Below, in pieces: positions 500 to 34,650 of a DNA stretch of 36,537 nucleotides; the stretch's first letter is position 1, and each line of letters begins with the position of its first letter. The DNA is taken from contig CAIQJL010000004.1 of the NCBI GenBank assembly GCA_903872185.1, positions 1 to 36,537 of the forward strand, read 5' to 3'. Origin of the DNA: an uncultured Bacteroidota bacterium. GTDB lineage: Bacteria; Bacteroidota; Bacteroidia; Bacteroidales; GWA2-32-17. The position numbers and the translations under genes were made by a program. Below the pieces are notes generated by a model. The model had not been told where the DNA came from, did not search any database, and saw nothing but the letters and a program-made list of their open reading frames with translations.

Positions 500-690
500 T
501 AGTGATTATATTATCTGTGTGTCACAGATGTCTTTGTGGTCTGTGTGGTACATATCAAGGGAATGGGAGGCAAAATTTGTGGTCTGTGGGTCAGAGACTA
601 CGGAGGCAAGTTATGTTTTAAATGTGGTCTGTGAGCCACAGACCATGGAGATTAGTTACAAGCTTACGCTTGCGCCAAATTGTATTTTGA
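500..690. repeat. Cluster of short palindromic repeats (GTCTGTG family)
   Basis: Several short inverted repeats are packed between the peptidase stop and the arsR promoter. ATCTGTG (513-519) pairs with CACAGAT (523-529) around TGT. TGGTCTGTG (625-633) pairs perfectly with CACAGACCA (637-645) around AGC. An imperfect copy lies at about 582-598 and a half copy at about 537-547. CAAGC (659-663) pairs with GCTTG (668-672). The same unit recurs at 7816-7838. A 71-codon frame runs through the stretch but looks like chance. They may be terminator-like or REP-like elements; the function is unknown. Confidence 0.7.
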
Positions 691-728
691 ATATTTAAAA
701 TTATGTCGTATGTTTGCGACATAATTTT
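687..728 (+). promoter_or_regulatory. Promoter of the mercury cassette with overlapping palindromic operator
   Basis: TTG at 687-689, 19 nt, then TATGTTTG at 709-716 matches the Bacteroidota promoter pattern (TTG, about 19-20 nt, TAnnTTTG). A perfect 12-bp inverted repeat, AAAATTATGTCG (697-708) and CGACATAATTTT (717-728), flanks the -7 box so that its 8-nt loop is exactly TATGTTTG. A repressor dimer on these arms would cover the promoter. The arsR ATG follows at 735, so the leader would be only about a dozen bases. Binding by the encoded ArsR protein is inferred from position. Confidence 0.75.
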
Positions 729-734
729 ATTTAA

Positions 735-1073
735 ATGACCTATTCGAAAAATCATGCTTTTAGTTCTGAATTGCAAGAAATTGCAACAATTTGCAAAGCA
801 TTATCTCATCCTGCAAGAATAGCCATACTTAAGCATCTTTCAACTTGTTCGAGTTGCATTTCTGGAGATATAACAAAAGAAATACCTTTAAGCCGATCAA
901 CAGTTTCTCAGCATTTACAGGAATTAAAAAAGGCAAATTTGATAGAAGGAGAAATAGACGGAGTAAAAATATGCTATTGTCTAAATTCCAAAATTATTAA
1001 AAAGCATTTCGGGTTATTAAATAAAATACTAATCGAAATATCTACAGAAAATAAATTCACTAAATGTTGTTAA
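735..1073 (+). CDS. ArsR/SmtB-family metal(loid)-responsive repressor
   Basis: A 112-residue winged-helix repressor of usual ArsR length. The recognition region runs from about residue 42 to 70 (I-S-G-D-I ... S-R-S-T-V-S-Q-H-L-Q-E-L-K-K-A-N-L-I). Six cysteines are placed as expected for a thiol sensor: Cys38 and Cys41 just before the HTH (the position of the classical ArsR metal site), Cys80 and Cys82 in the wing strand, and a terminal Cys111-Cys112 pair. ArsR proteins leave DNA when As(III), Sb(III) or another soft metal binds. It is the first gene of the cassette, 7 bp after the palindrome flanking the -7 box, and 15 bp before the next gene. ArsR-like regulators upstream of hgcAB are known from other methylators. 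Its inducer (As, Hg or another) cannot be told from sequence. Confidence 0.92.
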   Translation: MTYSKNHAFSSELQEIATICKALSHPARIAILKHLSTCSSCISGDITKEIPLSRSTVSQHLQELKKANLIEGEIDGVKICYCLNSKIIKKHFGLLNKILIEISTENKFTKCC

Positions 1074-1088
1074 ATAAATAATTAAATC

Positions 1089-1406
1089 ATGGAAGAAAAC
1101 AAAGATCAAAAGGATTGTGGTTGTGGTACAGGCGAAAATAAAGAATGCTGTCCACCAAAAAGTTCAAAAAAACGCATGTGGACAACAATTATTTTTATTG
1201 TTGTTATATTAGCAGCAGGCTTATTAATTTCTTATAAAATGTTTTGTCCTCATGCATGCAAAGGCGATGCAACATGCCCAAAAGACAGTATTGCGTCATG
1301 TTGTGCAGGAAAAACAATGACAGACACAGCGGCAGTTCCTTCTTGTTGCGCAGGAAGAGCAATAAAAGACACAACAGCTGTTCCATCTTGTTGTGCTAAA
1401 AAATAA
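1089..1406 (+). CDS. Cysteine-rich single-pass membrane protein with three SCCA repeats
   Basis: A 105-residue protein with 13 cysteines. The N-terminal segment carries Cys10, Cys12 and the pair Cys20-Cys21, followed by a Lys/Arg-rich stretch (about 24-29) and one membrane span (about 32-49). The positive charges suggest N-in, C-out topology, which puts Cys53, Cys57, Cys63 and three repeats of the form S-C-C-A-(G/K)-(K/R) (pairs 71-72, 86-87, 101-102, 15 residues apart) in the periplasm. I do not recognise a named family. Vicinal cysteines bind Hg(II), As(III) or Cu(I) well, and HgcB in the same operon also ends in Cys-Cys. A role as soft-metal capture protein or metallochaperone is inferred. 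The start is supported by the 15-bp gap to arsR and the 3-bp gap to the next gene. An alternative is a thiol redox partner of the CcdA-like protein. Confidence 0.85.
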   Translation: MEENKDQKDCGCGTGENKECCPPKSSKKRMWTTIIFIVVILAAGLLISYKMFCPHACKGDATCPKDSIASCCAGKTMTDTAAVPSCCAGRAIKDTTAVPSCCAKK

Positions 1407-1409
1407 AAA

Positions 1410-2105
1410 ATGAGCGAGTGGATTAACACTGCTTTAAGTTCAGGTGCTGGTTCTTTCTCAATGCTAACAGCAGTTTTTTTATTGGGAATAATCAGCACCT
1501 TTACATCTTGCTGTAATTATGCAATACTTGGTTCTATTACCGGGTATTCTGCAAATTATGCTGTAAATTCGAGCAAGAAAAGCCAGATCTTATTTAGTTT
1601 AGCATTTTTAATTGGCAGTGTTATCTCTCTGGCAATTATTGGAGCGCTTATGGGGTATATTGGATCAACAGTTGTAACAGCAGTAGGCATTTACTGGAAA
1701 ATAGCTGTTGCAGTTTTATTAATTCTTTTTGGACTTTTATCTTTAGGATTAGTTCCTATAACAATTCCCCAAATAAATATTAAAAGTAAGAGACAAGGAT
1801 TTATTCCAGGTATAATTCTAGGCGTTTTTACCGGTGGATTATCATTAGTTTGTAATGTGTGTTGCAATCCTATTCTACCTATTGTTTTGGGAGCATCATT
1901 TGTAAAAGCAAGTGTAGTTTGGGGAATATTAATTTTGATTGCATATGCCATAGGCTATAGCCTGCCTTTTACAGTGGCAATTGCAGGAATGCAAATGGGA
2001 TTTGGAAAACTTTCAAACAAAATGAAAAATGCAAGCAAGATCATTACAACTATTGCTGGTATCATTATGATTTTATCAGGATTTTATTTAATTTACACTT
2101 TTTAA
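1410..2105 (+). CDS. CcdA/DsbD-like membrane protein with vicinal cysteine pairs
   Basis: A 231-residue integral membrane protein with about six spans, the size and layout of CcdA, the core of DsbD. The family moves reducing equivalents from cytoplasmic thioredoxin to the periplasm through one cysteine in each of two pseudo-symmetric spans. Here the first helix has T-S-C-C-N-Y (Cys34-Cys35) and the matching helix of the second half has C-N-V-C-C-N-P (Cys148, Cys151, Cys152), followed by the family's P-I-L-P segment. The doubled cysteines are unusual and resemble metal-passing pairs as in MerT. It sits 3 bp after the Cys-rich gene and 2 bp before hgcA, so it is almost certainly co-transcribed with them. 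Likely roles, both inferred: keeping periplasmic thiols of the Cys-rich protein reduced, or passing Hg(II) across the membrane. Confidence 0.88.
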   Translation: MSEWINTALSSGAGSFSMLTAVFLLGIISTFTSCCNYAILGSITGYSANYAVNSSKKSQILFSLAFLIGSVISLAIIGALMGYIGSTVVTAVGIYWKIAVAVLLILFGLLSLGLVPITIPQINIKSKRQGFIPGIILGVFTGGLSLVCNVCCNPILPIVLGASFVKASVVWGILILIAYAIGYSLPFTVAIAGMQMGFGKLSNKMKNASKIITTIAGIIMILSGFYLIYTF

Positions 2106-2107
2106 AA

Positions 2108-3130
2108 ATGCATTTTGTTACAAGTTACATAAATCTTGAAACTAAAATTCCAGTAGTTTCAACAAAACTTGAAACAAGAGATTATTTTGGTGCAATAAAA
2201 GCCAGATGGTCAATAAACAGAAGCAATTACAAAATAACTCCTGGTTTATACGCAATAGGAAATCCTAACAAAAATTCTGAGGTTTTTGTAACATCAAATT
2301 ATAAGCTAAGCTTTGATCATTTAAGAAAAAATCTGGTTGGATTAAATGCCTGGATACTGGTTTTAAACACTAATGGCATTAATGTATGGTGTGCTGCAGG
2401 TAAAGGAACATTTGGTACAACTGAACTTGTTTCAAAAATAAATGAATTCTCGTTAAATACTATCGTAGATCACAAAAGAATAATTGTTCCCCAGCTTGGC
2501 GCAGTTGGCATTTCAGCGCATGAAGTAAAAAAGGAAACTGGTTTTAACATAAAATACGGACCAGTAAATGCATCTGATATAAAAGACTTTTTAAACAAGA
2601 ATTATAGATCTGATATTAAAATCAGAACAGTTAATTTCAGATTTAAAGACAGGCTTATTCTAACTCCAGTTGAAATTGTTGCTCATTTTAAATATTTGAC
2701 ATTACTTTTCTCTGCCTTTTTTATTTTAAGTTGTTTAAGTAGAGATGGATTTTCTGTTGATAAAGGTTGGGATTATCTTCATATTATTATATTAAATCTT
2801 GGTGGATCGTATATCTGCGGAACAGTGCTTACACCAATATTTTTACCATATATTCCATTCAGAAACTTTTCATTTAAAGGATTAATTATTGGTTTTATTT
2901 TTTCTTCAATAATTACATTTTTTAACATTAATGGCAACAATATACCTGAATTAATTTCGTGGCTATTCATAAATCTTGCTATTGCTTCTTTTACGGCAAT
3001 GAATTTTACCGGTGCATCAACATATACCTCGCTTTCGGGAGTAAAAAAAGAAATGAGAATTGCATTACCAATTCAAATTGGACTATTTGTTATAGGATTA
3101 ATTACATGGATAATTCTTAGATTTATTTAA
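2108..3130 (+). CDS. hgcA: HgcA, corrinoid-dependent mercury methyltransferase
   Basis: HgcA transfers a methyl group from its corrinoid to Hg(II), making methylmercury. The protein is 340 residues, close to the 338 of the ND132 enzyme. The N-terminal half is the CFeSP-like corrinoid domain with the diagnostic cap-helix motif N-V-W-C-A-A-G-K at 92-99; Cys95 is the expected lower cobalt ligand. Other family segments are T-P-G-L-Y-A-I-G (44-51), V-T-S-N-Y-K-L-S-F-D (61-70) and V-P-Q-L-G-A-V-G (127-134). The C-terminal half has about five membrane spans (roughly 195-212, 224-248, 256-273, 280-297, 319-338) and the conserved M-N-F-T-G-A-S-T-Y-T-S-L-S-G-V segment at 298-312. It starts 2 bp after the CcdA-like gene and ends 4 bp before hgcB. 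No corrinoid synthesis or acetyl-CoA pathway genes are in the window, so methyl supply must come from elsewhere. Confidence 0.97.
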   Translation: MHFVTSYINLETKIPVVSTKLETRDYFGAIKARWSINRSNYKITPGLYAIGNPNKNSEVFVTSNYKLSFDHLRKNLVGLNAWILVLNTNGINVWCAAGKGTFGTTELVSKINEFSLNTIVDHKRIIVPQLGAVGISAHEVKKETGFNIKYGPVNASDIKDFLNKNYRSDIKIRTVNFRFKDRLILTPVEIVAHFKYLTLLFSAFFILSCLSRDGFSVDKGWDYLHIIILNLGGSYICGTVLTPIFLPYIPFRNFSFKGLIIGFIFSSIITFFNINGNNIPELISWLFINLAIASFTAMNFTGASTYTSLSGVKKEMRIALPIQIGLFVIGLITWIILRFI

Positions 3131-3134
3131 TAAC

Positions 3135-3428
3135 ATGACATTAACTTATTTAAAAAACGTTACTACACTTGAACTTGATACAGAAATATGTACTGGTTGC
3201 TCAATGTGTTTTATAGTTTGTCCACATAATGTGTTCGAAATAAAAAACAAAAAATCGATAATTATAAATAAAGACTTTTGCATGGAGTGTGGTGCCTGCC
3301 AAAAAAACTGTCCAGATAATGCCATTAAAGTTCAAACAGGGGTTGGTTGTGCTGCAGGTATAATTATTGGTTTTATAAATGGTACTGAACCTGATTGTAG
3401 TTGTGGGGAAGGTTCGACCTGTTGCTAA
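3135..3428 (+). CDS. hgcB: HgcB, 2[4Fe-4S] ferredoxin partner of HgcA
   Basis: HgcB is thought to reduce the HgcA corrinoid to Co(I) and to hand over Hg(II) through its thiols. The protein has 97 residues. Two ferredoxin motifs are complete: Cys19, 22, 25, 29 and Cys49, 52, 55, 59, each followed by proline. After the clusters come the conserved lone cysteine (Cys72, in G-V-G-C-A-A-G) and a tail with Cys88, Cys90 and the terminal pair Cys96-Cys97. A lone Cys plus C-terminal Cys-Cys is the HgcB signature that separates it from ordinary ferredoxins; the extra C-S-C just before the terminal pair gives four tail thiols. It is the last gene of the operon. No strong terminator hairpin is visible in the 120 bp after it. 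Confidence 0.96.
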   Translation: MTLTYLKNVTTLELDTEICTGCSMCFIVCPHNVFEIKNKKSIIINKDFCMECGACQKNCPDNAIKVQTGVGCAAGIIIGFINGTEPDCSCGEGSTCC

Positions 3429-23033: not shown

Positions 23034-26000
23034 ATGAGAAAATTATTGACTTTATTAATTGCTATTGTCTTCAGCAGTGTTACGTGGGGACAAACAATTT
23101 TTACACAGAATTTTGAAAGTGTATGGACATTACCTACAACTTTAACTCCTGCATGGAGTGGAACAACAACTCCTGCAGACAATGTATGGCATCAAAACGC
23201 ATATACTACAGGGTGGGCTTCTACTACCGGAGCATATACTCCTACTGGTGCAAACGCCACAACTGCATCTGCAAGATTTCATACTTATGATGTAGCATCT
23301 GGTGGTACTGGTGATTTTATTACACCAACAATTGATTTTTCTGCTAATGTTGGCATTAAAATAGTTGATTTTTACTATATTAACACTACGGGAACAGATG
23401 TAGTAAACGTTTATCTTTCAACTGATAATGGAGTTACATGGGGAAGTACTCTTAAAACTGTTACAACTGCTGCTGCCTGGACAAAATACTCGGTTATTTT
23501 AGGTTCATCAGCATCTACTCAATGTAAAGTTAAATTTACTGCAACAAGTGATTGGGGAACTACTGACTTAGGAATTGATGAAGTTGTAGTTAGAATTGGA
23601 ATTGCTGGTGATGCAGCACCAACTACATTTACCGCAACAGCAGTTACTCAAACTGGTATGACATTAGGCTGGACTGATAATTCAACAAATGAAACAAGCT
23701 TTAGAGCTTATAGATCAACTGATAATATTTCTTTTGTTTTAGCAGGTGCAGATGTTACTTCAACAACAACCGCAGGAATTGGAACTACATATTCTTTAGT
23801 TCAAACAGGACTTGTGCCAGGAGCAACTTATTACTATAGAATAGCATCAGTTGTTGAGTTAGAATCTGCTTACTTAACTGGAAGTCAGGCTACAAATGCT
23901 GCAGGAGTAATAACTTCAATTGCTTCAGGTAACTGGAGTGCACCAGCAACATGGTCTACTGGAATTGTTCCAACTGCAACAGATAATGTAATAATTGCTG
24001 ATGGACATACAGTAAATATAGATATCACAACACCAACATGTTTAGACTTAACAGTTGGTCAAGGTGTTTCTGGAATTTTAACTTTTACAAGTGCTACAGC
24101 ATCTACTTTAATAGTAAATGGAAGTATTACTGTAGCGGCTGGTGCTAATTTTAATGCAGGAACAACAGTAACAATTATACACAATATTTATTTAGGCGGA
24201 AATACTGCTAACTCACCATATTTTAGTAACCTTACAGTCAACGGATCATTTGATATGTGGGCTACCGCAACTACAGGTAGAGCAACTCTTACATTTTTTG
24301 GAAATCAAAACTCAGTAATTTCTGGTACTGGAACAACTTTGGATTTTAACAACACAAATATTATAAATAAAGGTACTGTTATAGCAACTTCAACAGTTAC
24401 TCCTATTTTACTAGATTTACAAAGAGCATATACCGTACAGGGTGCATCAACTTTAGGTTTTCTTACTACACATACAGCTGGAACTTTAAAAATTAGCGGA
24501 TCTTTTACACAAGCTAACCCTATTTATACCACAGCTAGTTATACCGTTCCTGCAACAGCTGGAATATGGTTAAACAATGCAAATTTTACAGTAACTGCAT
24601 TAACTGGTTCTCCAACTGTTACTGGTCTTTTCAAAGTAACTTCAGGAATTTATAACATTGGTACTGCTGCCGGTAACTCAATGGGTAGTGGTACTGGAGG
24701 TGTATTTATAATTGAAGGTGGAGCAATTAACGTTTCCGGTAGATTTAATCTTACTTCAACAGGTGTTTACTACAATCAATCTGGCGGTACTTTGTCAGTT
24801 GTAACTGTTGCTAATACAACTGTTGCGTCTGCAGGATTTGGAATTACATCAGGTACAAGTTTTTTTGTAATGAGTGGAGGAACTATTGTTTTAGTTCAAA
24901 GAAATAGCGGAATACTTGGATTAACTACTAGAGATTATTATGTAGTAGCTACACCAACTATTACTGGTGGTACTTTACAAGTTGGAAGTGCAGCTACATT
25001 AACTAATTTCAACTTCAGATTATATGGTTATGCACCAAACGTAGTTATTGACAATACAACCAATAATAAGAAAGCTGAAGTTTATCAAACAACAGGTGTA
25101 CTATACGTATTTGGAACATTAACTGTAAACACAGGAACTACTTTTGATTGTTTAGGCATGTCAGGATTCGCTTTAGGCAACGTAGTTAATAACGGAATTA
25201 TTCAAGGTCTTGTTACTGGTAGTCGTTTTGATTTTTCTGGCACTGTTCCTCAAACATATACAGGAACCGGCACATTTGGAACTGCATTAGCTCCATTTAT
25301 CGGAACCGGTGTAGGTATTGCCAACACAGCTAACGTAACACTAAGCTCACCTATTATTACTACCCGCGTAAATTTATTTGCTGGTACTTTTATTAACAGT
25401 AATCAAATTACTTTAGGTAATGGTGGTGCTTCAAGTGCTTTTGTTCAAAGAGGTGGAGGAGCTACAAATCCTGCTGGAACATTTGATGTTGCTCCAATTT
25501 TCGCCTATGGAACTGGTGGTATTGGAATTAGCTACTTTACTGCTTCTAATATGACTTCATCAGGTTTTGAAATTCCTGCTTCCCGAATTATTTCTAATGT
25601 AACAATTAATAATTCTTTTGGAGTTACTTTATTAGGTGGTGCTTTAAGTACAGCTGCAATGACAATGACACTTGGAAATATAACAACTACTGCTGCCAAT
25701 CTTTTAACTGTAACCGGAACTGCAACAACAGCAATTACATATACTGCTGGTTATGTTAATGGTCCTTTAGCACGAATTCTTCCTGCTAGTTTAATTACAG
25801 GTTCAACCTATAATATGCCAGTTGGAAAAGGAACATATAATCCATTTGCCTTAGTTAATCCAACAACTAATGCTGGTGGAACTGTAACCGTTCAGGCAGA
25901 AGTTTTTGATGCTAACTGCGGTGGTACTTCTGGAATTTTAATGGGTGCATTAAATTCAAATAGATATTGGGCTGCCTCTTTAACAAGTGGAAACGCTAAC

Positions 26001-29000
26001 TTTACAAATTCACTAATACAACTTAACGATTTACCTCTTGGTGCCGATGCAATTGCTGCTAGCGCAACAGTTGCTGGCGCATATGATATTGTTGGCGGAG
26101 TTACAATTACTGCTACTGCTTCATCCTTAACTTCTACAGCTCCAGCTGCAGCATCACTCCCAGGTTTCTTTGTAATGGGAAATAAAGCTGCTGCTACTCT
26201 AACAAATTTAGCAATTACTCCTTCTGGAAATCAGTGTACAAATGTTGCAAGAACAGTAACCGTTACAGCAACTCCTGGTGGGGGTGCAGTAACTAATGTT
26301 GTAATAAACTATAGTATTAATAGTGTTGCTCAAACAGCAATTACAATGACAAATATACCAGCAACAAATAATTGGACTGGTACAATTCCAACTGTTGTTC
26401 CTGTAAACGCAAACATTACCTGGAGCGTAACTGCTACTGATGCAAATCTTTTAACAAAAACCGCAATTGGTACACCATATACTGACGAACCAGCTTTAGG
26501 TGTAACTGCTGTAGCTACTGCTTCATTAACTTCGGTTTGTAGTGGAAGTCCTACCATATTAAATGTAGCTGTAGCTAAAACAGGTAATGTGGCTATAGGT
26601 ACTGCATTAACTCTTACTAGTGCAACTGCTCAACCAACTGCATTTTGCAACAGATGGGCATCTTATCGTATGCAAACCGTTTACACTGCAGCAGAATTAA
26701 ATGCTGCTGGTTTATTTGCTGGACCTATTTCTGCAATTGCTTACAATATAACAACTTTAGGCGATGCAGCTACCAACGCTAATTTTACTGTAAAAGTTGG
26801 AACTACAGCTTTATCAGCTTTTACTGATTTTATATCAAGTACTGGATTTACTACTGTATTTCCTGCTGCTACATATACCCATGCTGTTGGTGTAAATACA
26901 ATTACATTTACAACACCTTATAATTGGGATGGTACTTCAAATTTAGTTATCGAAGTTAGCCATGATGGTGCTGATTTAACTAATAATTCAATTACTTATT
27001 ATACTGCAACTGTTGGTAATACTGTAGCACATTCTTATAATGGCACTTTAGTAGGAACACCAAGTACAAATAGATTAAATATTGTATTTACAGGTAACAC
27101 TGCTCCATCACCTTCTGCTTATTCTTGGTCTGATGGTTCAATTGTAGTTGGAACAACAAATCCATTAACAGTAAATCCAACTGCCAATAAAACTTACACT
27201 GCTACAGCAACTATTTCAGGTTGTCCAATAGTTTCAAATAATGTTGCTGTAACTGTAAACGCATTACCTGCAACACCTACTGCAAATAATTCATCACAGT
27301 GTGGTGCTGCAGTTCCAAACTGTTCAGTAACTTCAACATCAGGAGCTGGTAGTCCTACATTTAATTGGTATACAGCACCAACCGGAGGAACTCCAATAAC
27401 AGGAAATACAGCAAATTATGGTGATGTGGCAATTACTGTTGCAACACATTTTTATGTTTCAGAATTTAATGGAACATGCGAAAGTCCACGCATTGACGTT
27501 TTTGCAAACGTTGGAGCTGCTCCTGCAATAACTATTACAGCTGACCAAACAGTTTGTAATAACTCTGTTGCATCAATGACAGTTACTTCTACATTATCTG
27601 ATTTTAACTCATACCAATGGAGTCCTGTAACAGATTTATATACTGATGCTGCTTGCACAGTTCCTTATGTTGCATTAGCAAACGCAACTACAGTTTATTC
27701 TAAATCTGCAATTGGAGGTTCAGCTGTTTACACTTGCAATTCACTAAATACAACAACATTCTGTACAAACATTGCAACATCAACAGTAACAACATTACCA
27801 GCAACTAGCCAAGCTATTGCTGTAACTGGCAATAATTTTTGCATGAATGGATCTTCTGTTTTAACAGCTAGTCCAACTATAGGTTATGGTTCAGCTACTT
27901 TCCAATGGCAAAATTCTAGTAATAACATTACTTTTGCCGATATAGCAAGTGCAACTTCTACAACCTATACTACTCCTTTATTATCAAATACTACTTATTA
28001 TAAAATACTCGTTAAAGTTGGTGCAACTACTTGTTCATCTTCAAATGTTGATTCAGTAGTAGTAAATAATCCTTTAATATTATCATCAACTCCTGCAACT
28101 CGTTGCGGAACAGGATCTGTAGCATTAGGTGTAACAGGATCAACAGGATCAACTGTAAACTGGTATGCAGCTTTAACTGGAGGTGTTAGTTTAGCTACTG
28201 GAACAAGTTTTAACACTCCTTCTATTTCAGCTACAACAACTTATTACGCTGAAGCATCAGCTGGTTCACAAACATTTAATACTGGTATTGTATCTGATAT
28301 TCCAGCAAATCTATCATCACTTAGCGGTTATGGAGTATATTTTACATCCGCATTAAATGCAGTAATTAATTCAGTAGATATTTATCCATCAACTGCAGGT
28401 ACTTTGATTATTACCATGAGAGATGGAGCAAGCGCAATTGTTGATACAAGAACATTTACAATAGCTGCTGGTGAAATCAGCAACACAGTAAAAAAGACTT
28501 TAGCATTAGGTTTTAACGTTCCAGCTGGAGCAACTGGCTGGTCTTTAAATTATGATATAGCTATTTACCGTGGAGGTGGAAGTTATGTGTATTCAACTGT
28601 TGTAAATGGTTTCTCAATTACAGGAAATACTATAAATGGAAATAACATTGTAAGTGGCACACGTTATTATTTTTATAACTGGTCATTCTCAAATCCTTGT
28701 TCTGGTTCTCGCGTACCAGTTACTGCAACTGTAAATACTCCTCCAGCAATAACAGTAAGCTCAACTCCTGCTGCAATTTGTTTAGGTCAAAGCACAACTT
28801 TAGATGTATCTAGTGCAAATACTGGATATACTTATTCATGGGCACCAACAACAGTTCCTGCTACAGGTGCTTCAGTTTCTGCTTCTCCTTTAGTATCAAC
28901 AGCATACAATATAACTGCAACTGATATTTCAGGTGGTGCAAATGATGGTTGTGTTGCCACAGCTACAGTAAATGTAACCGTAAATCCTATACCAGAAGGC

Positions 29001-30935
29001 GTAGTTGCAACATCTAGCCAAACTGCAATATGCTCAGGTTTAACAATTAATTTAACTTCTGTTCCTTCGGGTGGAAATGTAACTTTAATTGATGAAAAAT
29101 TTAATGGAGCTACTAACACATTTGTTGCAGTAAATACATCTACAGGTGGAACACCAGCTTTAGCTAACTGGACATTAGAACCAGATGCATATGTTTATGG
29201 AGGCGAAACATTCCATTCAAATGATAACACTCAATTCTATATTACAAATAGTGATGCTCAGGGTAATGGCGGAACAACTGCAACAACTCTTGAAACTCCT
29301 ACTTTTAGCACATTAGGAATGACAAGCTGCTCTTTAAATTTTTATCAATACTTTTACTCTTATACAGGAAGTACAGCTTACGTTGAGGTTTATAATGGCA
29401 CAACTTGGATAGCAGTTGGTACCTATACAACAACTCAGGGAACTTCAGCAGCATTTATAAATACTGTTATTTCTCTTGATTCATATGTTGGTTTATCAAA
29501 TGTAAAAGTTCGTTTCCGTTATGTTGGTGCATGGGCATACTACTGGGCAATTGACAACGTGTTAATAACAGGCGTTAATCCTGCTTTCACATACGCATGG
29601 ACTTCAGTTCCTGCTGGCTTTACTTCAACTAGCCAAAACCCAACTGGCTTAACTCCAACCACTTCAACCCAGTATAATTTAGTAGTTTCAACTCCTGCTG
29701 GATGTACAAATACTGCAAATACATCAGTAACTGTTACTCCTTTGCCAACTATTGCTTTAACTAGCTCAAATGCTGTTACAATTTGCCAAGGTGGAAACAC
29801 TGACATTTCTATAGCATTAACAGGAACAGGTCCATGGACATGGGTTGGAAACGATGGTTCAGGCCCAGCTTCATTTAATGAAACTTCAAGTCCTGTAACT
29901 TTAAATGTTGCTCCAACAGTAAATACAACTTATAGTATTATTTCTGTTACAGATGCAACTGGTTGTTCTAATACTTCAACTGGCGCAGTTGCTGTTACAG
30001 TTCATGATTTACCAATTATTACTGTTACAACTTCTACAAATCCAACTATTTGTGGAGCAAGTGATGGAACTGCAACTGCTAGCGCAGGAACAACATACTT
30101 ATGGAATACAACTCCAAGTCAATCTACACAACAAGCTACTGGTTTAGCTGCAGGAACTTATACAGTAACTGTTTCTGATGGAACATGTGAAAATACTGCT
30201 ACAGTTTCTTTAAACGATCCAGGTGCTCCAACTGTAGGGGTTTTAGCTGATGATAATTCAGTTTGCCCAGGTACTTTAGTAACATTTACTGCTAACGGTG
30301 CAACAGCATACGAATTCTTTGTAAATGGAACATCACAAGGAGCTCCTTCTGCTTCTAGTACTTTTACTTCTTCATCGTTATCTAATGGTGATGTTGTTAG
30401 TGTAGACGGAACTACAACAGGTTGTACCGGAAGTAGCAATTCAATTGACATAACTGTATTTACAGTTAGTACTGTAACAATTTCAGATGTTGCAGGAGTT
30501 TATACTTCAACTGCAACTACCGGAAATCAATGGTATGATGCAAATGGAATATTAGCTAGTGAAATTGGAGCTACTTATACTCCAACCGTAAACGGTGATT
30601 ATCACGTTGTTGCAACAGACGCTAATGGTTGTACTACAACTTCAAACACTTTAAGCTTTGTTCTTTCTTCATCAAATAATGGATTAAGTTCAAGTTTGAA
30701 TATTTATCCTAATCCTGCAAAAGACAAAGTATTTGTTGAAGTTTCTAACTCTAACAATTCACGTATGTCTATTGAATTAATGTCGTTAGATGGAAGAGTA
30801 CTTTATGAAAATTCTTCAGAAGTTTCTGGAAAATTAACAATCAGTATTAACCTTAACGAATACGCTTCAGGAATTTATATGATTAAAGCAGTTTCTGAAA
30901 ATAACAGTTTGGTTCAGAAATTAGTTATTCAATAA
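23034..30935 (+). CDS. Giant secreted multidomain protein with T9SS sorting domain
   Basis: A 2633-residue exported protein. It has a signal peptide (1-19, ending T-W-G). A jelly-roll/MAM-like adhesion module follows (about 22-190: F-T-Q-N-F-E ... G-I-D-E-V-V-V), then a fibronectin type III domain (about 198-285). A G-N-W-S-A-P-A-T-W-S-T-G-I-V-P segment near 298 opens a long repetitive, Thr/Gly/Asn-rich, probably beta-helical part. From about 1080 comes a series of Ig/PKD-like modules with paired cysteines, a second MAM-like module (about 2015-2180, ending W-A-I-D-N-V-L-I-T-G), and more Ig-like modules. The last 80 residues are a type A sorting domain (I-Y-P-N-P-A-K-D near 2557; G-I-Y-M-I-K-A-V; C-terminal L-V-I-Q). 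It is probably a surface adhesin or matrix protein; no catalytic residues are recognised. Confidence 0.85.
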   Translation: MRKLLTLLIAIVFSSVTWGQTIFTQNFESVWTLPTTLTPAWSGTTTPADNVWHQNAYTTGWASTTGAYTPTGANATTASARFHTYDVASGGTGDFITPTIDFSANVGIKIVDFYYINTTGTDVVNVYLSTDNGVTWGSTLKTVTTAAAWTKYSVILGSSASTQCKVKFTATSDWGTTDLGIDEVVVRIGIAGDAAPTTFTATAVTQTGMTLGWTDNSTNETSFRAYRSTDNISFVLAGADVTSTTTAGIGTTYSLVQTGLVPGATYYYRIASVVELESAYLTGSQATNAAGVITSIASGNWSAPATWSTGIVPTATDNVIIADGHTVNIDITTPTCLDLTVGQGVSGILTFTSATASTLIVNGSITVAAGANFNAGTTVTIIHNIYLGGNTANSPYFSNLTVNGSFDMWATATTGRATLTFFGNQNSVISGTGTTLDFNNTNIINKGTVIATSTVTPILLDLQRAYTVQGASTLGFLTTHTAGTLKISGSFTQANPIYTTASYTVPATAGIWLNNANFTVTALTGSPTVTGLFKVTSGIYNIGTAAGNSMGSGTGGVFIIEGGAINVSGRFNLTSTGVYYNQSGGTLSVVTVANTTVASAGFGITSGTSFFVMSGGTIVLVQRNSGILGLTTRDYYVVATPTITGGTLQVGSAATLTNFNFRLYGYAPNVVIDNTTNNKKAEVYQTTGVLYVFGTLTVNTGTTFDCLGMSGFALGNVVNNGIIQGLVTGSRFDFSGTVPQTYTGTGTFGTALAPFIGTGVGIANTANVTLSSPIITTRVNLFAGTFINSNQITLGNGGASSAFVQRGGGATNPAGTFDVAPIFAYGTGGIGISYFTASNMTSSGFEIPASRIISNVTINNSFGVTLLGGALSTAAMTMTLGNITTTAANLLTVTGTATTAITYTAGYVNGPLARILPASLITGSTYNMPVGKGTYNPFALVNPTTNAGGTVTVQAEVFDANCGGTSGILMGALNSNRYWAASLTSGNANFTNSLIQLNDLPLGADAIAASATVAGAYDIVGGVTITATASSLTSTAPAAASLPGFFVMGNKAAATLTNLAITPSGNQCTNVARTVTVTATPGGGAVTNVVINYSINSVAQTAITMTNIPATNNWTGTIPTVVPVNANITWSVTATDANLLTKTAIGTPYTDEPALGVTAVATASLTSVCSGSPTILNVAVAKTGNVAIGTALTLTSATAQPTAFCNRWASYRMQTVYTAAELNAAGLFAGPISAIAYNITTLGDAATNANFTVKVGTTALSAFTDFISSTGFTTVFPAATYTHAVGVNTITFTTPYNWDGTSNLVIEVSHDGADLTNNSITYYTATVGNTVAHSYNGTLVGTPSTNRLNIVFTGNTAPSPSAYSWSDGSIVVGTTNPLTVNPTANKTYTATATISGCPIVSNNVAVTVNALPATPTANNSSQCGAAVPNCSVTSTSGAGSPTFNWYTAPTGGTPITGNTANYGDVAITVATHFYVSEFNGTCESPRIDVFANVGAAPAITITADQTVCNNSVASMTVTSTLSDFNSYQWSPVTDLYTDAACTVPYVALANATTVYSKSAIGGSAVYTCNSLNTTTFCTNIATSTVTTLPATSQAIAVTGNNFCMNGSSVLTASPTIGYGSATFQWQNSSNNITFADIASATSTTYTTPLLSNTTYYKILVKVGATTCSSSNVDSVVVNNPLILSSTPATRCGTGSVALGVTGSTGSTVNWYAALTGGVSLATGTSFNTPSISATTTYYAEASAGSQTFNTGIVSDIPANLSSLSGYGVYFTSALNAVINSVDIYPSTAGTLIITMRDGASAIVDTRTFTIAAGEISNTVKKTLALGFNVPAGATGWSLNYDIAIYRGGGSYVYSTVVNGFSITGNTINGNNIVSGTRYYFYNWSFSNPCSGSRVPVTATVNTPPAITVSSTPAAICLGQSTTLDVSSANTGYTYSWAPTTVPATGASVSASPLVSTAYNITATDISGGANDGCVATATVNVTVNPIPEGVVATSSQTAICSGLTINLTSVPSGGNVTLIDEKFNGATNTFVAVNTSTGGTPALANWTLEPDAYVYGGETFHSNDNTQFYITNSDAQGNGGTTATTLETPTFSTLGMTSCSLNFYQYFYSYTGSTAYVEVYNGTTWIAVGTYTTTQGTSAAFINTVISLDSYVGLSNVKVRFRYVGAWAYYWAIDNVLITGVNPAFTYAWTSVPAGFTSTSQNPTGLTPTTSTQYNLVVSTPAGCTNTANTSVTVTPLPTIALTSSNAVTICQGGNTDISIALTGTGPWTWVGNDGSGPASFNETSSPVTLNVAPTVNTTYSIISVTDATGCSNTSTGAVAVTVHDLPIITVTTSTNPTICGASDGTATASAGTTYLWNTTPSQSTQQATGLAAGTYTVTVSDGTCENTATVSLNDPGAPTVGVLADDNSVCPGTLVTFTANGATAYEFFVNGTSQGAPSASSTFTSSSLSNGDVVSVDGTTTGCTGSSNSIDITVFTVSTVTISDVAGVYTSTATTGNQWYDANGILASEIGATYTPTVNGDYHVVATDANGCTTTSNTLSFVLSSSNNGLSSSLNIYPNPAKDKVFVEVSNSNNSRMSIELMSLDGRVLYENSSEVSGKLTISINLNEYASGIYMIKAVSENNSLVQKLVIQ

Positions 30936-30954
30936 TAATTTTTTCTTACTAATT

Positions 30955-30987
30955 AAAAGCCGTCTCATTTTGAGACGGCTTTTTTTA
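30955..30987 (+). terminator. Rho-independent terminator after the giant gene
   Basis: AAAAGCCGTCTCA (30955-30967), loop TTT, TGAGACGGCTTTT (30971-30983), followed by more T. A 13-bp stem, 20 bp after the stop codon. Its core GCCGTCT is shared with the terminator at 34669. Confidence 0.93.
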
Positions 30988-31003
30988 TTATTGACATTTG
31001 CTA

Positions 31004-31034
31004 TTGATGGTAAAATAAAATCGACTTAACTTTA
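31004..31034 (+). promoter_or_regulatory. Promoter of the 1197-residue protein gene
   Basis: TTG at 31004-31006, exactly 20 nt, then TAACTTTA at 31027-31034. It is nearly the same as the promoter before 34801 (TTG, 20 nt, TAACTTTG), including a CTATTGA-like start. It lies 22 bp before the ATG at 31057. Confidence 0.6.
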
Positions 31035-31056
31035 TCAAAAATTAAATTCCGAATAT

Positions 31057-34000
31057 ATGAAAAAGAACATTTTAGTTTTATTAGCTATTTTTATTGGTTT
31101 GACACATTTTATAAATGCTCAAACAAATCCAACTCCTCAGACTTTACCTTATAGTCAGGATTTTTCAACATTAGCAAGTACCGCTACTGCATACCCCGTT
31201 GGTTGGCAAGGATGGACAATTGGTGTTGTTGGGCCTGTTGCATTTACAACTACTGCACCAACAGCTGATAGAGCATTAATTGCTAATAGTACAGCAGCTA
31301 CAAATTCTGGAAATGTTCATAATTATAACGGCACAATAGGATTTTTAAATTCTACTAGTTTAGATCTATCTGTTGTATTTTCAGTAAATACAACAGGAAA
31401 CTCAAATGTAAATGTGAGTTATGATGTTATGACCATAAGGAATCCTTATGATGGAACTACTAACACTAGAATTAACGAAGTAACTTTACAATACCGAGTT
31501 GGAAATACTGGTGTATTTACAAATTTAACTGGAATAGAATATCAAAATAATACCACTACTCAAACTACAACAGGAGTTACTACTCCTCAGAATTTACAAA
31601 ATAAAACAATTGTACTTCCTACAGCATGTGATAATCAAGCAGAAGTTCAACTTAGATGGGCATCAAGACAAGTTAGTGGTGGTGGAGGAAGACCAAGTTT
31701 TGCTTTTGATAACATCTCTGTAACAAATGGCATTGCAAGTAATGCTGCAGAGATTTTAACGTTTGATATACCATCACAAGTATCAAGTACAGTTAATTCT
31801 TTAGCCGGCACAGTAAATATTGTTATGCCTTTTGGAACTGATGTTACAACTTTAGTCCCTACAATTACATTATCTGCTGGAGCTACAATAATTCCTAATA
31901 GTGGAACCACTCAGAATTTCACAAGTTCAGTAACTTTTGTTGTAACAGCTCAAGATGCAATAACTACAAAAAACTGGACAGTAAATGTAACCGTTCAACC
32001 AGGTAGTAATGCTGCTGAAATTATTTCATTTGATATTCCTACACAACTCTCAAGTACTGTTAATAGCCTTGCAGCTACAGTAAATATAATTATGCCTCTA
32101 GGCACAACTCTTAATGCGCTAATTCCAACTATTATATTGTCTACAGGCGCAACCGTTTCTCCATTAAGTGGAGTAGCACAGGATTTTACAGGTGCTGTTT
32201 CTTATACAGTGACGGCTCAGGATGGCTCAACAACAAAAATTTGGACAATTAATGTTGGAATACAAGCAAATAATCAAGCTGAAATTTTAACATTCGATAT
32301 TCCTACACAAGTTTCAAGTACAATTAATGGACTTGCAACTACAGTGAACATTGTTATGCCTTTTGGAACAAATGTTACAACATTAATTCCAACTATTACT
32401 TTATCAACTGGCGCAACTGTATCCCCACTAACGGGAGTTGCTCAGGATTTTACTAGCAATGTTGCTTATACTGTAACTGCTCAAGATGCAGTCACTACAA
32501 AAACATGGACAGTAAATGTAACGGTTCAACCTGGAAGTACTGCTGCAGAAATAATAACTTTTGACATTGCTGGCCAAACATCAAGTGTTGTAAATACAGG
32601 AACCTCAACAGTAAACATTGTTATGCCTTCTGGCACTATCGTAACAAATCTTACTCCAACAATTACAATTTCTGCAAATGCTACTATTTCACCTAATAAC
32701 GGCATAAGTCAAGATTTTACTTTACCTGTTAATTACATTGTTACAGCACAAGATGGTATAACTACAAAAAACTGGACAGTAAATGTTACTGTTGATTTAG
32801 CCACGATTGTCCTATGGAATTTTCCAAATAATCCAGATGACAGTATAGCTGATGGAGGTATTGCTGCTAATTTAAATAAGTTATTAATTACTAACTCTTC
32901 AGGTGTTGTTGCCTTTGCTTCAGCTGGAGTAACAACAAACTCTGCAAGAAATACTGGCTGGGCAAGTGGAATGGATACAAAATATTGGGAAATTGAATTT
33001 ACAACTGCTGGATTTTCAGACATTACCCTTGCGTCTATTTTAAGATCATCAAGTACAGGCCCAAAAGATTTTAAAGTTCAATATAAAATTGGGACTGGTG
33101 GAACATGGACAGACGTGCCTGCTGCAATAATAACAACTGCAGCAAATTGGACCACTGGAGTACTGCCAACAATGACACTGCCTATTGAAACTTTTAATAA
33201 AACTTCAGTATTTCTTCGTTGGATAATGACATCTGACATAGCAGTTGGAGGAGCGGCTGTTGTTGCTGCTGGTGCTTCAAATATTGATAATATTATTATT
33301 AAAGGAATACCATTATTAGTTAATAATGCTGCTGAGATTTTAACTTGTGATATTCCTACACAAGTTTCAAGTGTTGTTAATAGCACAAATGCAACTGTAA
33401 GTATTATTATGCCTTATGGAACAGTACTTACTTCATTAATTCCAACAATTACATACTCAACAGGAGCAACAATAGCCCCATTAAGTGGAATTGCTCAAGA
33501 TTTTACCTTACCTGTGAATTATCTAGTAACTGCTCAAGATGGAATAACCACAAAAAACTGGACAGTTACAGTAACATTGGCTCCTGCTCCGAGTAATGCT
33601 GCTGAAATTATTACTTTTGATATCCCAACTCAGGTTTCTTCTACTATTACAAGTGCATCATCAACTATAGATATCTTATTACCTATTGGGACAAATGTTA
33701 CCGCATTAACTCCTTCAATTACAGTATCTGCAGGTGCAACAATTTCTCCATTAACTGGAGTTGTGCAAGATTTTACAAACCCTGTTACATATATTGTTAC
33801 TGCTGAAGATGGAGTTACTTCAAAAACATGGACAGCGACAGTTTCATTAGTTATTGCACCTCTTGCAATAGTTGAATGGAATTTCCCTAACAACCCAGAT
33901 GATTCAATTGCTGATGGAGGAATTACTGCTAATTTAACAAAAGGGTTAGCGTCAAATACTGGAAATTTAGCTACTTATATTCCTAGCAGTGCAGCTGGTG

Positions 34001-34650
34001 CAACTACAAGTAGTGCAAGAGCTTCAGCATGGGATAGCGGACTAGATACAAAATATTGGGTTATAGAGTTTACTACAAATGGGTATGAACAAATTACATT
34101 GTCTTCTAGACAAAGATCATCAAGTACCGGCCCAGCTAATTTTAAAGCACAATACAAAGTTGGAACAGCTGGAACATGGACAGACATTACAAATGGGACA
34201 ATAACTGTAGCAAATGATTTTACTACTGGAATTCTTACAGATTTAAGTCTTCCTATTGAATGCAATAATCAAAGCTCTGTTTTTATTAGATGGATTATGA
34301 CTTCTGACATTGCTGTAAGCGGTGCTGCTGTTGCTATTACTGGAGCTTCTGGCATTGATGATATTATTGTAAAAGGACTCTTAATTACCAATACTAATGA
34401 AGTAGATTTAAATATTTCATTTAGCGTTTCCTTATATCCAAATCCTGCAACTGAATATGTAAACTTAATTTCAAACAATAATTCAAATTCTGATTTAAAT
34501 ATTGAATTAATTTCAATTGATGGAAAAGTTTTATTAAAAGAAAAATTACAAAATAATATCATTTCACTTAAAGGCATTTCAGATGGAATTTATTTCATTA
34601 AAGTAATTTCAGATGGAAAAGTAAATATTCAAAAGTTAGTCGTTAATTAA
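31057..34650 (+). CDS. Secreted modular repeat protein with T9SS sorting domain
   Basis: A 1197-residue exported protein with a signal peptide (1-22, ending I-N-A-Q). After an N-terminal adhesion-type module (about 25-225) come four tandem repeats of about 89 residues starting at 229, 318, 406 and 495. Each has the pattern A-E-I-(L/I)-x-F-D-I ... I-x-M-P-x-G-T ... P-x-x-G-x-x-Q-D-F-T ... Y-x-V-T-A-Q-D-x-x-T-T-K-x-W-T-V-x-V, resembling DUF5018-like beta-sandwich modules. A different module of about 170 residues opens with W-N-F-P-N-N-P-D-D-S-I-A-D-G-G at 587. Two more beta-sandwich repeats follow at 757 and 847, then a second W-N-F-P-N-N module at 941. The C-terminus is a type A sorting domain (Y-P-N-P-A-T-E near 1129; G-I-Y-F-I-K-V). 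No enzyme motif is seen; it is probably a surface or matrix protein. Confidence 0.85.
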   Translation: MKKNILVLLAIFIGLTHFINAQTNPTPQTLPYSQDFSTLASTATAYPVGWQGWTIGVVGPVAFTTTAPTADRALIANSTAATNSGNVHNYNGTIGFLNSTSLDLSVVFSVNTTGNSNVNVSYDVMTIRNPYDGTTNTRINEVTLQYRVGNTGVFTNLTGIEYQNNTTTQTTTGVTTPQNLQNKTIVLPTACDNQAEVQLRWASRQVSGGGGRPSFAFDNISVTNGIASNAAEILTFDIPSQVSSTVNSLAGTVNIVMPFGTDVTTLVPTITLSAGATIIPNSGTTQNFTSSVTFVVTAQDAITTKNWTVNVTVQPGSNAAEIISFDIPTQLSSTVNSLAATVNIIMPLGTTLNALIPTIILSTGATVSPLSGVAQDFTGAVSYTVTAQDGSTTKIWTINVGIQANNQAEILTFDIPTQVSSTINGLATTVNIVMPFGTNVTTLIPTITLSTGATVSPLTGVAQDFTSNVAYTVTAQDAVTTKTWTVNVTVQPGSTAAEIITFDIAGQTSSVVNTGTSTVNIVMPSGTIVTNLTPTITISANATISPNNGISQDFTLPVNYIVTAQDGITTKNWTVNVTVDLATIVLWNFPNNPDDSIADGGIAANLNKLLITNSSGVVAFASAGVTTNSARNTGWASGMDTKYWEIEFTTAGFSDITLASILRSSSTGPKDFKVQYKIGTGGTWTDVPAAIITTAANWTTGVLPTMTLPIETFNKTSVFLRWIMTSDIAVGGAAVVAAGASNIDNIIIKGIPLLVNNAAEILTCDIPTQVSSVVNSTNATVSIIMPYGTVLTSLIPTITYSTGATIAPLSGIAQDFTLPVNYLVTAQDGITTKNWTVTVTLAPAPSNAAEIITFDIPTQVSSTITSASSTIDILLPIGTNVTALTPSITVSAGATISPLTGVVQDFTNPVTYIVTAEDGVTSKTWTATVSLVIAPLAIVEWNFPNNPDDSIADGGITANLTKGLASNTGNLATYIPSSAAGATTSSARASAWDSGLDTKYWVIEFTTNGYEQITLSSRQRSSSTGPANFKAQYKVGTAGTWTDITNGTITVANDFTTGILTDLSLPIECNNQSSVFIRWIMTSDIAVSGAAVAITGASGIDDIIVKGLLITNTNEVDLNISFSVSLYPNPATEYVNLISNNNSNSDLNIELISIDGKVLLKEKLQNNIISLKGISDGIYFIKVISDGKVNIQKLVVN
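31741..33860 (+). repeat. Six in-frame beta-sandwich repeats in DNA
   Basis: Repeat starts are at 31741, 32008, 32272, 32539, 33325 and 33595, with periods of 264-270 bp. Several share long near-identical stretches at DNA level, for example around the M-P-F-G-T and Q-D-F-T codons. The fourth and fifth copies are separated by the first WNFPNN module. Confidence 0.85.
32815..34380 (+). repeat. Duplicated WNFPNN module (two copies)
   Basis: The copies run from about 32815 to 33307 and from about 33877 to 34380. They share W-N-F-P-N-N-P-D-D-S-I-A-D-G-G-I, then S-G-(M/L)-D-T-K-Y-W, R-S-S-S-T-G-P and F-(L/I)-R-W-I-M-T-S-D-I-A-V. Each follows a block of beta-sandwich repeats, so the block plus module seems to have been duplicated as a unit. 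Confidence 0.8.

Follow-up and report, generated by a model that had tools for sequence, protein, structure and literature searches.

The window analysed here, 36,537 nucleotides (nt) of contig CAIQJL010000004.1 (GenBank assembly GCA_903872185.1) from an uncultured Bacteroidota bacterium of the order Bacteroidales, carries near its start a five-gene cassette in which hgcA and hgcB, the genes for microbial mercury methylation, follow a gene for an ArsR-type regulator and two genes for membrane proteins, referred to here as CysTM and CcdA-like. Our best reading of the comparisons is that hgcAB appears to take, in a Bacteroidota arsenic-type operon, the methyltransferase role held by arsM in sister loci. 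At the level of sequence, linkage, co-selection, a shared operator and methyltransferase exchange are established, and the anatomy of the cassette and its operator is firm; the substrate of the CysTM-CcdA pair and the direction in which it acts are not.

The membrane protein pair with hgcAB and with arsM

All five genes lie on the forward strand between positions 735 and 3428 and, as an earlier sequence-only reading had proposed, are separated by gaps of 15, 3, 2 and 4 nt, which re-derivation of the coordinates reproduced exactly. The full HgcA and HgcB signatures claimed in that reading are also present in the last two genes, which are adjacent and whose products both exceed the NCBIfam cut-offs (HgcA, NF040863, 422 bits against 275, with the NVWCAAGK motif at residues 92-99; HgcB, NF040864, 121.7 bits against 99, with two CX2CX2CX3CP motifs and a terminal CC). 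The winged-helix domain of ArsR lies above its family cut-off as well (NF033788, 66.9 bits against 55; PF01022, 39.7 against 22). The source genome (4.3 Mb) has a single copy of hgcA and, in a search at an expect value (E) of 1e-60, no arsM, the cassette contains no ars gene other than arsR, and no Rfam family was found in the first 6 kb of the window; what the cassette has in common with arsM operons is only the CysTM-CcdA pair and the type of operator.

The pair occurs with arsM, and without hgcAB, in three loci, the gene orders of which are arsR-CysTM-CcdA-arsM-acr3 (L088), arsR-arsM-CysTM-CcdA (L095) and arsR-arsC-arsM-CysTM-CcdA-acr3 (L096). ArsM was identified with NF008823 in L095, in G546 (the genome of L096) and in L033, a locus outside the order (G172) where both methyltransferases stand in one run, arsR-arsM-CysTM-CcdA-hgcA-hgcB. 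In a tree of the CcdA-like proteins, the sequences from L088, L095 and L096 are each sister, with full support, to a different hgc-linked sequence, implying that the partners were switched about three times. The hgc locus L078 retains, between arsC and CysTM, a C-terminal ArsM remnant of 44-53 residues that is 68% identical to the ArsM of L096, where the whole gene occupies the same place, and in L097 (G587) a second copy of CysTM-CcdA, which is broken, precedes the remains of an hgcA gene. The earlier proposal of middle genes dedicated to HgcAB is only partly right, and their dedication is not supported, given these arsM-only loci and the operator that the cassette has in common with an arsC-acr3 operon (see below); because the arsM-only loci carry the same pair, it is also unlikely that the pair serves specifically to capture Hg(II) for HgcB.

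To define how widely the arrangement is conserved, larger stretches around each hgcA locus were scored by tblastn. HgcA exceeded its cut-off in 23 of 393 Bacteroidales genomes and in two of 395 in a phylum-wide sample. Among the 22 loci of those 23 genomes with enough upstream sequence, 14 have a CcdA-like gene upstream of hgcA, directly or nearly adjacent in 12 and separated by an insertion of 1.2-1.7 kb in two (L041, L042). The CcdA-like family, as delimited by its own profile, is present in 16 of the 393 genomes of the order, and hgcA in 14 of these 16, against 9 of the 377 others (Fisher p = 5e-18). A scan of 84,980 species genomes returned 15 CcdA-like loci, all in Bacteroidota and 14 of them with hgcAB; the scan used four query sequences and two short family patterns, and occurrence in other phyla is therefore possible. 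The neighbour scoring, which had been set as a check beforehand, thus upholds the earlier view that hgcAB belongs here to an extended conserved system and is not a bare pair, since the five-gene order recurs in many other families and the genes co-occur by genome; the CysTM-CcdA pair is neither private to one contig nor found mostly in unrelated arsenic loci.

Within the genus, genome G784 (L092) carries all five genes at the corresponding site, beside the same GTPase gene and with 78-88% protein identity, and G782 (L093) has the same five-gene order elsewhere in its genome; hgcA is absent from G559 and G783. The flanking GTPase gene was not found in the hgcA-free G559, and no empty site was shown. 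Ratios of nonsynonymous to synonymous substitution rates against L092 and L093 (0.02-0.22 for every cassette gene, with 0.02-0.29 as the span for the five genes overall) reveal purifying selection on all five, the constraint on the two middle genes being as strict as that on hgcA.

If hgcAB had landed by horizontal transfer in an existing arsenic operon, gaining a promoter only, then the middle genes would be unrelated to mercury. The occurrence of hgcAB in ars operons without the CysTM-CcdA pair (L034, L036, L050, L053) is consistent with such a passenger role, as are the operator common with the arsC-acr3 operon and published descriptions of hgcAB near arsR, acr3, arsC and arsM (PMC7438021). 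However, the window, L092, L093, L048 and others retain the pair beside hgcAB despite the absence of arsC, acr3 and arsM from the stretch read, and the CcdA-like family co-occurs far more tightly with hgcA (14/16) than with arsM (2/16); we therefore consider this account decidedly unlikely.

Several further hgc loci are of note in their own right. The two middle genes can part, because L036 and L094 keep only a CysTM-like gene upstream of hgcA, with no CcdA-like gene. In L053 (3214-3828; G560), hgcA contains two stop codons and lies inside an arsR-arsC-hgcA-acr3 operon in which no hgcB was found; here the mercury genes are decaying and the arsenic operon is staying. In L054 (G401), a damaged hgcA is split into two fragments and hgcB persists as a weak remnant. 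L056 (4245-5393; G603) encodes an HgcA-like protein of 382 residues with 13 Cys, and an HgcB-like match nearby; this protein is perhaps a member of the HgcAB-like fusion family NF043039. The arsenic cluster close to hgcAB in L050 and L052 (family f79) is of another kind: it includes an ArsE-like thioredoxin and a true ArsG, which in L050 scores 273.6 bits with NF040495; this ArsG is a second permease of CcdA type neighbouring hgcAB. Carriage on a mobile element was considered and is not indicated, viral contigs and plasmids having no relatives of HgcA or the CcdA-like protein, and phage records no match to the locus.

The CysTM and CcdA-like proteins

The description of both middle gene products as thiol-rich membrane proteins fits CysTM, which has 13 Cys in 105 residues and one transmembrane (TM) segment, and fits the CcdA-like protein more loosely, its five Cys forming two intramembrane clusters, C34-C35 in TM1 and C148/C151-C152 in TM4. 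CysTM matched no known family. Its residues C10, C12, C20 and C21, ahead of the TM helix, are invariant (alignment A2), its N-terminal motif being present in 26 of 27 longer members, and its Cys-rich tail is variable. As the N-terminal flank is the more positive side of the TM segment in 24 of 27 members, the positive-inside rule predicts that the CxC..CC head is cytoplasmic and the tail periplasmic.

The CcdA-like protein belongs to the CcdA/DsbD transmembrane family by its Pfam score (PF02683 DsbD_TM, 37.7 bits; cut-off 27.1) and by its predicted CcdA fold. Its best solved relative is CcdA 5vkv (profile E 6e-5), which is also the top Foldseek match of the AlphaFold model, with a probability of 1.00 but an E of only 0.013; among the VIA-align matches CcdA alone was used, because the leading unrelated transporters (Z ~7-8) represent helical-bundle background. 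C35-N36 and C152-N153-P154 are invariant in a 14-sequence alignment, and nearly every member has an extra Cys close to each, at most 1-2 residues away in TM1 and 1-4 in TM4. C35 aligns with the TM1 cysteine of 5vkv, and the TM4 cluster is at roughly the site of the other CcdA cysteine. On the family profile, members score at least 134 bits and the nearest other CcdA/DsbD proteins at most 85 bits; 54 weaker matches in the phylum (at most 85 bits) were rejected as members and left uncounted, the PC motifs in the loci read being those of ordinary CcdA/DsbD proteins. A remote relationship links the CcdA-like protein to ArsG (hhalign E 3e-5), though at 22.3 bits the protein is far under the NF040495 cut-off of 200, and a Pfam search of 16 members at E up to 1 gave no match to MerT.

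Given these relationships, the CcdA-like protein might be a CcdA/DsbD-type electron carrier that keeps CysTM, and the thiols carrying mercury or arsenic, reduced, in which case the pair would serve thiol maintenance and would not be a transporter. Its fold and sequence are those of CcdA, and the correspondence of its cysteine sites to those of CcdA points the same way. Yet the cassette has no gene for a thioredoxin-like periplasmic partner, the PC and PCxGP surroundings are replaced by C-x-C-N or CC-N and CNP, a second Cys unneeded for electron transfer is added at each site, and the family is set apart by the score gap given above. We consequently regard a purely redox role as unlikely.

We tentatively favour a different role, at a likelihood we would place a little short of even, in which the multi-cysteine CcdA-fold protein would export the methylated product, with CysTM as a thiol shuttle. 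ArsR would repress the cassette by occupying its promoter and would release the DNA upon coordination of As(III) or some other soft cation by its cysteines; HgcB would then hand Hg(II) to HgcA, which would methylate it. The cytoplasmic CxC..CC head of CysTM may take up the methylated thiophilic product. The two cysteine clusters that the CcdA-like protein has within the membrane would relay it to the Cys tail of CysTM on the periplasmic side, from which it would leave the cell. ArsM and HgcAB both yield a toxic, thiol-seeking methyl product, and no such product is a known substrate of Acr3. Conservation of the gene order across families, co-occurrence by genome, purifying selection, the arsM-only loci, the ArsM remnant in L078, the presence of both methyltransferases in L033, the sharing of the operator and the remote relation to ArsG are all counted in favour of the overall reading, in which hgcAB takes the role of arsM and the product is exported.

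MerT has vicinal cysteines in TM1, a likeness which raises the alternative that the pair takes Hg(II) in, or captures it, and delivers it to HgcB and HgcA, as MerT and MerP feed MerA. That some nine tenths of the loci of the family are tightly linked to hgcAB is in keeping with such delivery, but the three loci in which the pair accompanies arsM without hgcAB, where metalloid import would harm, and the lack of any Pfam MerT match among the 16 members argue against it, and we judge it quite unlikely. A cell that resists arsenic via ArsM gains nothing from import of As(III); export is preferred because it is the only job that makes sense with both ArsM and HgcAB.

Several observations weigh against substitution of hgcAB for arsM beside an exporter. 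The known function of the CcdA fold is electron transfer, not export, and the AlphaFold model of the CcdA-like protein is weak, with a predicted local distance difference test score (pLDDT) of 60 and a predicted template modelling score (pTM) of 0.60. Eight of the 22 scorable hgcA loci of the order (e.g. L034, L045, L049, L050) are without a CcdA-like gene, which is hence not essential to hgcAB. Only three arsM-only loci were found and most arsM genomes are without the CcdA-like family, so that it is not a general partner of arsM. Within the order, arsM is present in none of 21 hgcA-positive and in 99 of 333 hgcA-negative genomes (99/354 in total; p = 8e-4). This exclusion is itself counted in favour of the reading; what weighs against is that its p value treats genomes as unrelated, with kinship uncorrected, and the exclusion is limited to the order, L033 outside it having both arsM and hgcAB.

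A broader proposal, which we consider somewhat unlikely, is that Bacteroidota have a single system for methylating and exporting soft metal(loid)s, in which HgcAB and ArsM serve as exchangeable methyltransferase modules; common to both versions would be CysTM and a multi-cysteine CcdA-fold exporter of methylated products, under one arsenic-responsive operator. If true, it would place HgcAB natively within the detoxification of arsenic and would identify a path by which methylmercury exits the cell. A partner module bears, in any case, on the purpose of HgcAB, on the route of Hg(II) to HgcAB and on the exit of methylmercury. A conserved, co-selected module with defined cysteines and a two-site operator makes inducer, substrate and direction directly testable, and the arsM swap offers an independent handle, the same module being addressable with methylarsenite.

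Candidate operator, promoter and predicted arsenic regulon

An imperfect palindrome upstream of arsR is a candidate operator (Table 1). In 19 loci, the arsM-only locus L095 included, its core is found again immediately upstream of arsR with no more than five mismatches, and it is identical in three of the 19, from different families (L037 and L038 among them); the 485 kb of sequence read also contain two five-mismatch matches that lie elsewhere than at an arsR. The Bacteroidota -7 element has the consensus TAnnTTTG (PMC7366714), and this motif is exact in 17 of the 19 loci; the TTTG at -33 is not generally conserved across the loci compared. Because the centre of the operator coincides with the predicted -7 element, bound repressor would cover the promoter. 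As judged from sequence (703-722, 19 loci), the ArsR/SmtB-type regulator has a predicted palindromic operator at its own promoter.

In the whole 4.3-Mb genome, at most two mismatches being allowed, the operator pattern has two sites, one at the cassette and one at the arsR of an arsC-acr3 operon (contig C205), and a reversed control of the pattern has none. The ArsR proteins of the cassette and of the arsC-acr3 operon have the recognition-helix region SRTTVSQHL in common. From the two-site operator and this shared region, the cassette is predicted to be part of this cell's arsenic regulon.

The arsC-acr3 operon (L107; contig C205 of G000) is itself unusual in content, with a thioredoxin-like protein, a permease/ABC pair and a small secreted protein encoded between arsR and arsC-acr3. 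In the window, the gap before arsR also contains, at 535-658, three imperfect copies of TGTGGTCTGTG..., one of which holds a 19-bp palindrome, GGTCTGTGAGCCACAGACC. Genome-wide, six sites of this kind occur, and the reversed control gives zero; the element looks like a dispersed repetitive extragenic palindromic (REP)-like repeat. Far downstream, two very large secreted repeat proteins of 2633 and 1197 residues are encoded at 23034-34650.

Table 1. Genes of the cassette and candidate control elements upstream of arsR (window coordinates).
Feature	Position	Strand	Description
arsR	735-1073	+	ArsR/SmtB-family repressor; C-terminal CC, invariant C82 (alignment A5)
CysTM	1089-1406	+	Cys-rich, single TM helix; N-terminal CxC...CC motif, Cys-rich C-terminal tail
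CcdA-like membrane protein	1410-2105	+	PF02683; CC-N in TM1, C..CCNP in TM4
hgcA	2108-3130	+	Corrinoid methyltransferase HgcA, NF040863
hgcB	3135-3428	+	8Fe-8S ferredoxin HgcB, Cys-rich tail, NF040864
Operator (candidate, sequence-based)	696-729	+	Imperfect palindrome TAAAATTATGTCGTA-tgtt-TGCGACATAATTTTA (palindrome scan)
Operator conserved core	703-722	+	ATGTCGTATGTTTGCGACAT, 20 bp; ends 12 nt before arsR
Predicted -7 promoter element	709-716	+	TATGTTTG (TAnnTTTG); centre of operator core
TTTG	686-689	+	19 nt upstream of predicted -7 element

Comparison with known systems

The link between hgcAB and arsenic genes is already known; the CysTM-CcdA module is without description in the literature searched, which consisted mostly of papers outside subscription. 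In that literature no paper was found that describes the pair, the operator or the exchange with arsM, or that names CcdA, DsbD or cytochrome c biogenesis genes as neighbours of hgcA. In Pseudodesulfovibrio mercurii ND132, hgcAB is reported to be under the control of an ArsR, with a response to arsenic (PMC10349881). The cassette resembles this type in its hgcA-hgcB pair and upstream ArsR-family gene, but adds the CysTM and CcdA-like genes between arsR and hgcA and has a palindromic operator, common with an ars operon, over a Bacteroidota promoter. With arsR-arsC-arsM-acr3 operons the cassette has in common the pair, in L088, L095 and L096, and, in L095, the operator type, whereas the methyltransferase is S-adenosylmethionine-dependent ArsM there and corrinoid HgcA here.

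With respect to the proteins, the CcdA-like protein is like the CcdA/DsbD TM domain (PF02683; 5vkv) in its fold and in having a cysteine at both membrane sites, but differs in the extra cysteine per site, in CN and CNP for PC and PCxGP, in lacking a thioredoxin partner in the operon and in forming a separate family by its score gap. Like ArsG of the ArsEFG organoarsenical efflux system, it is a CcdA-type permease found in arsenic operons, and the two are remotely similar; it is nonetheless far under the ArsG cut-off, and L050 has, as a separate protein, a true ArsG encoded in the vicinity of hgcAB. In the MerT/MerP system, cysteine pairs pass Hg(II) across the inner membrane; the CysTM-CcdA pair differs in having no MerT sequence match, in its arsenic-type gene context and in its direction, which is probably outward.

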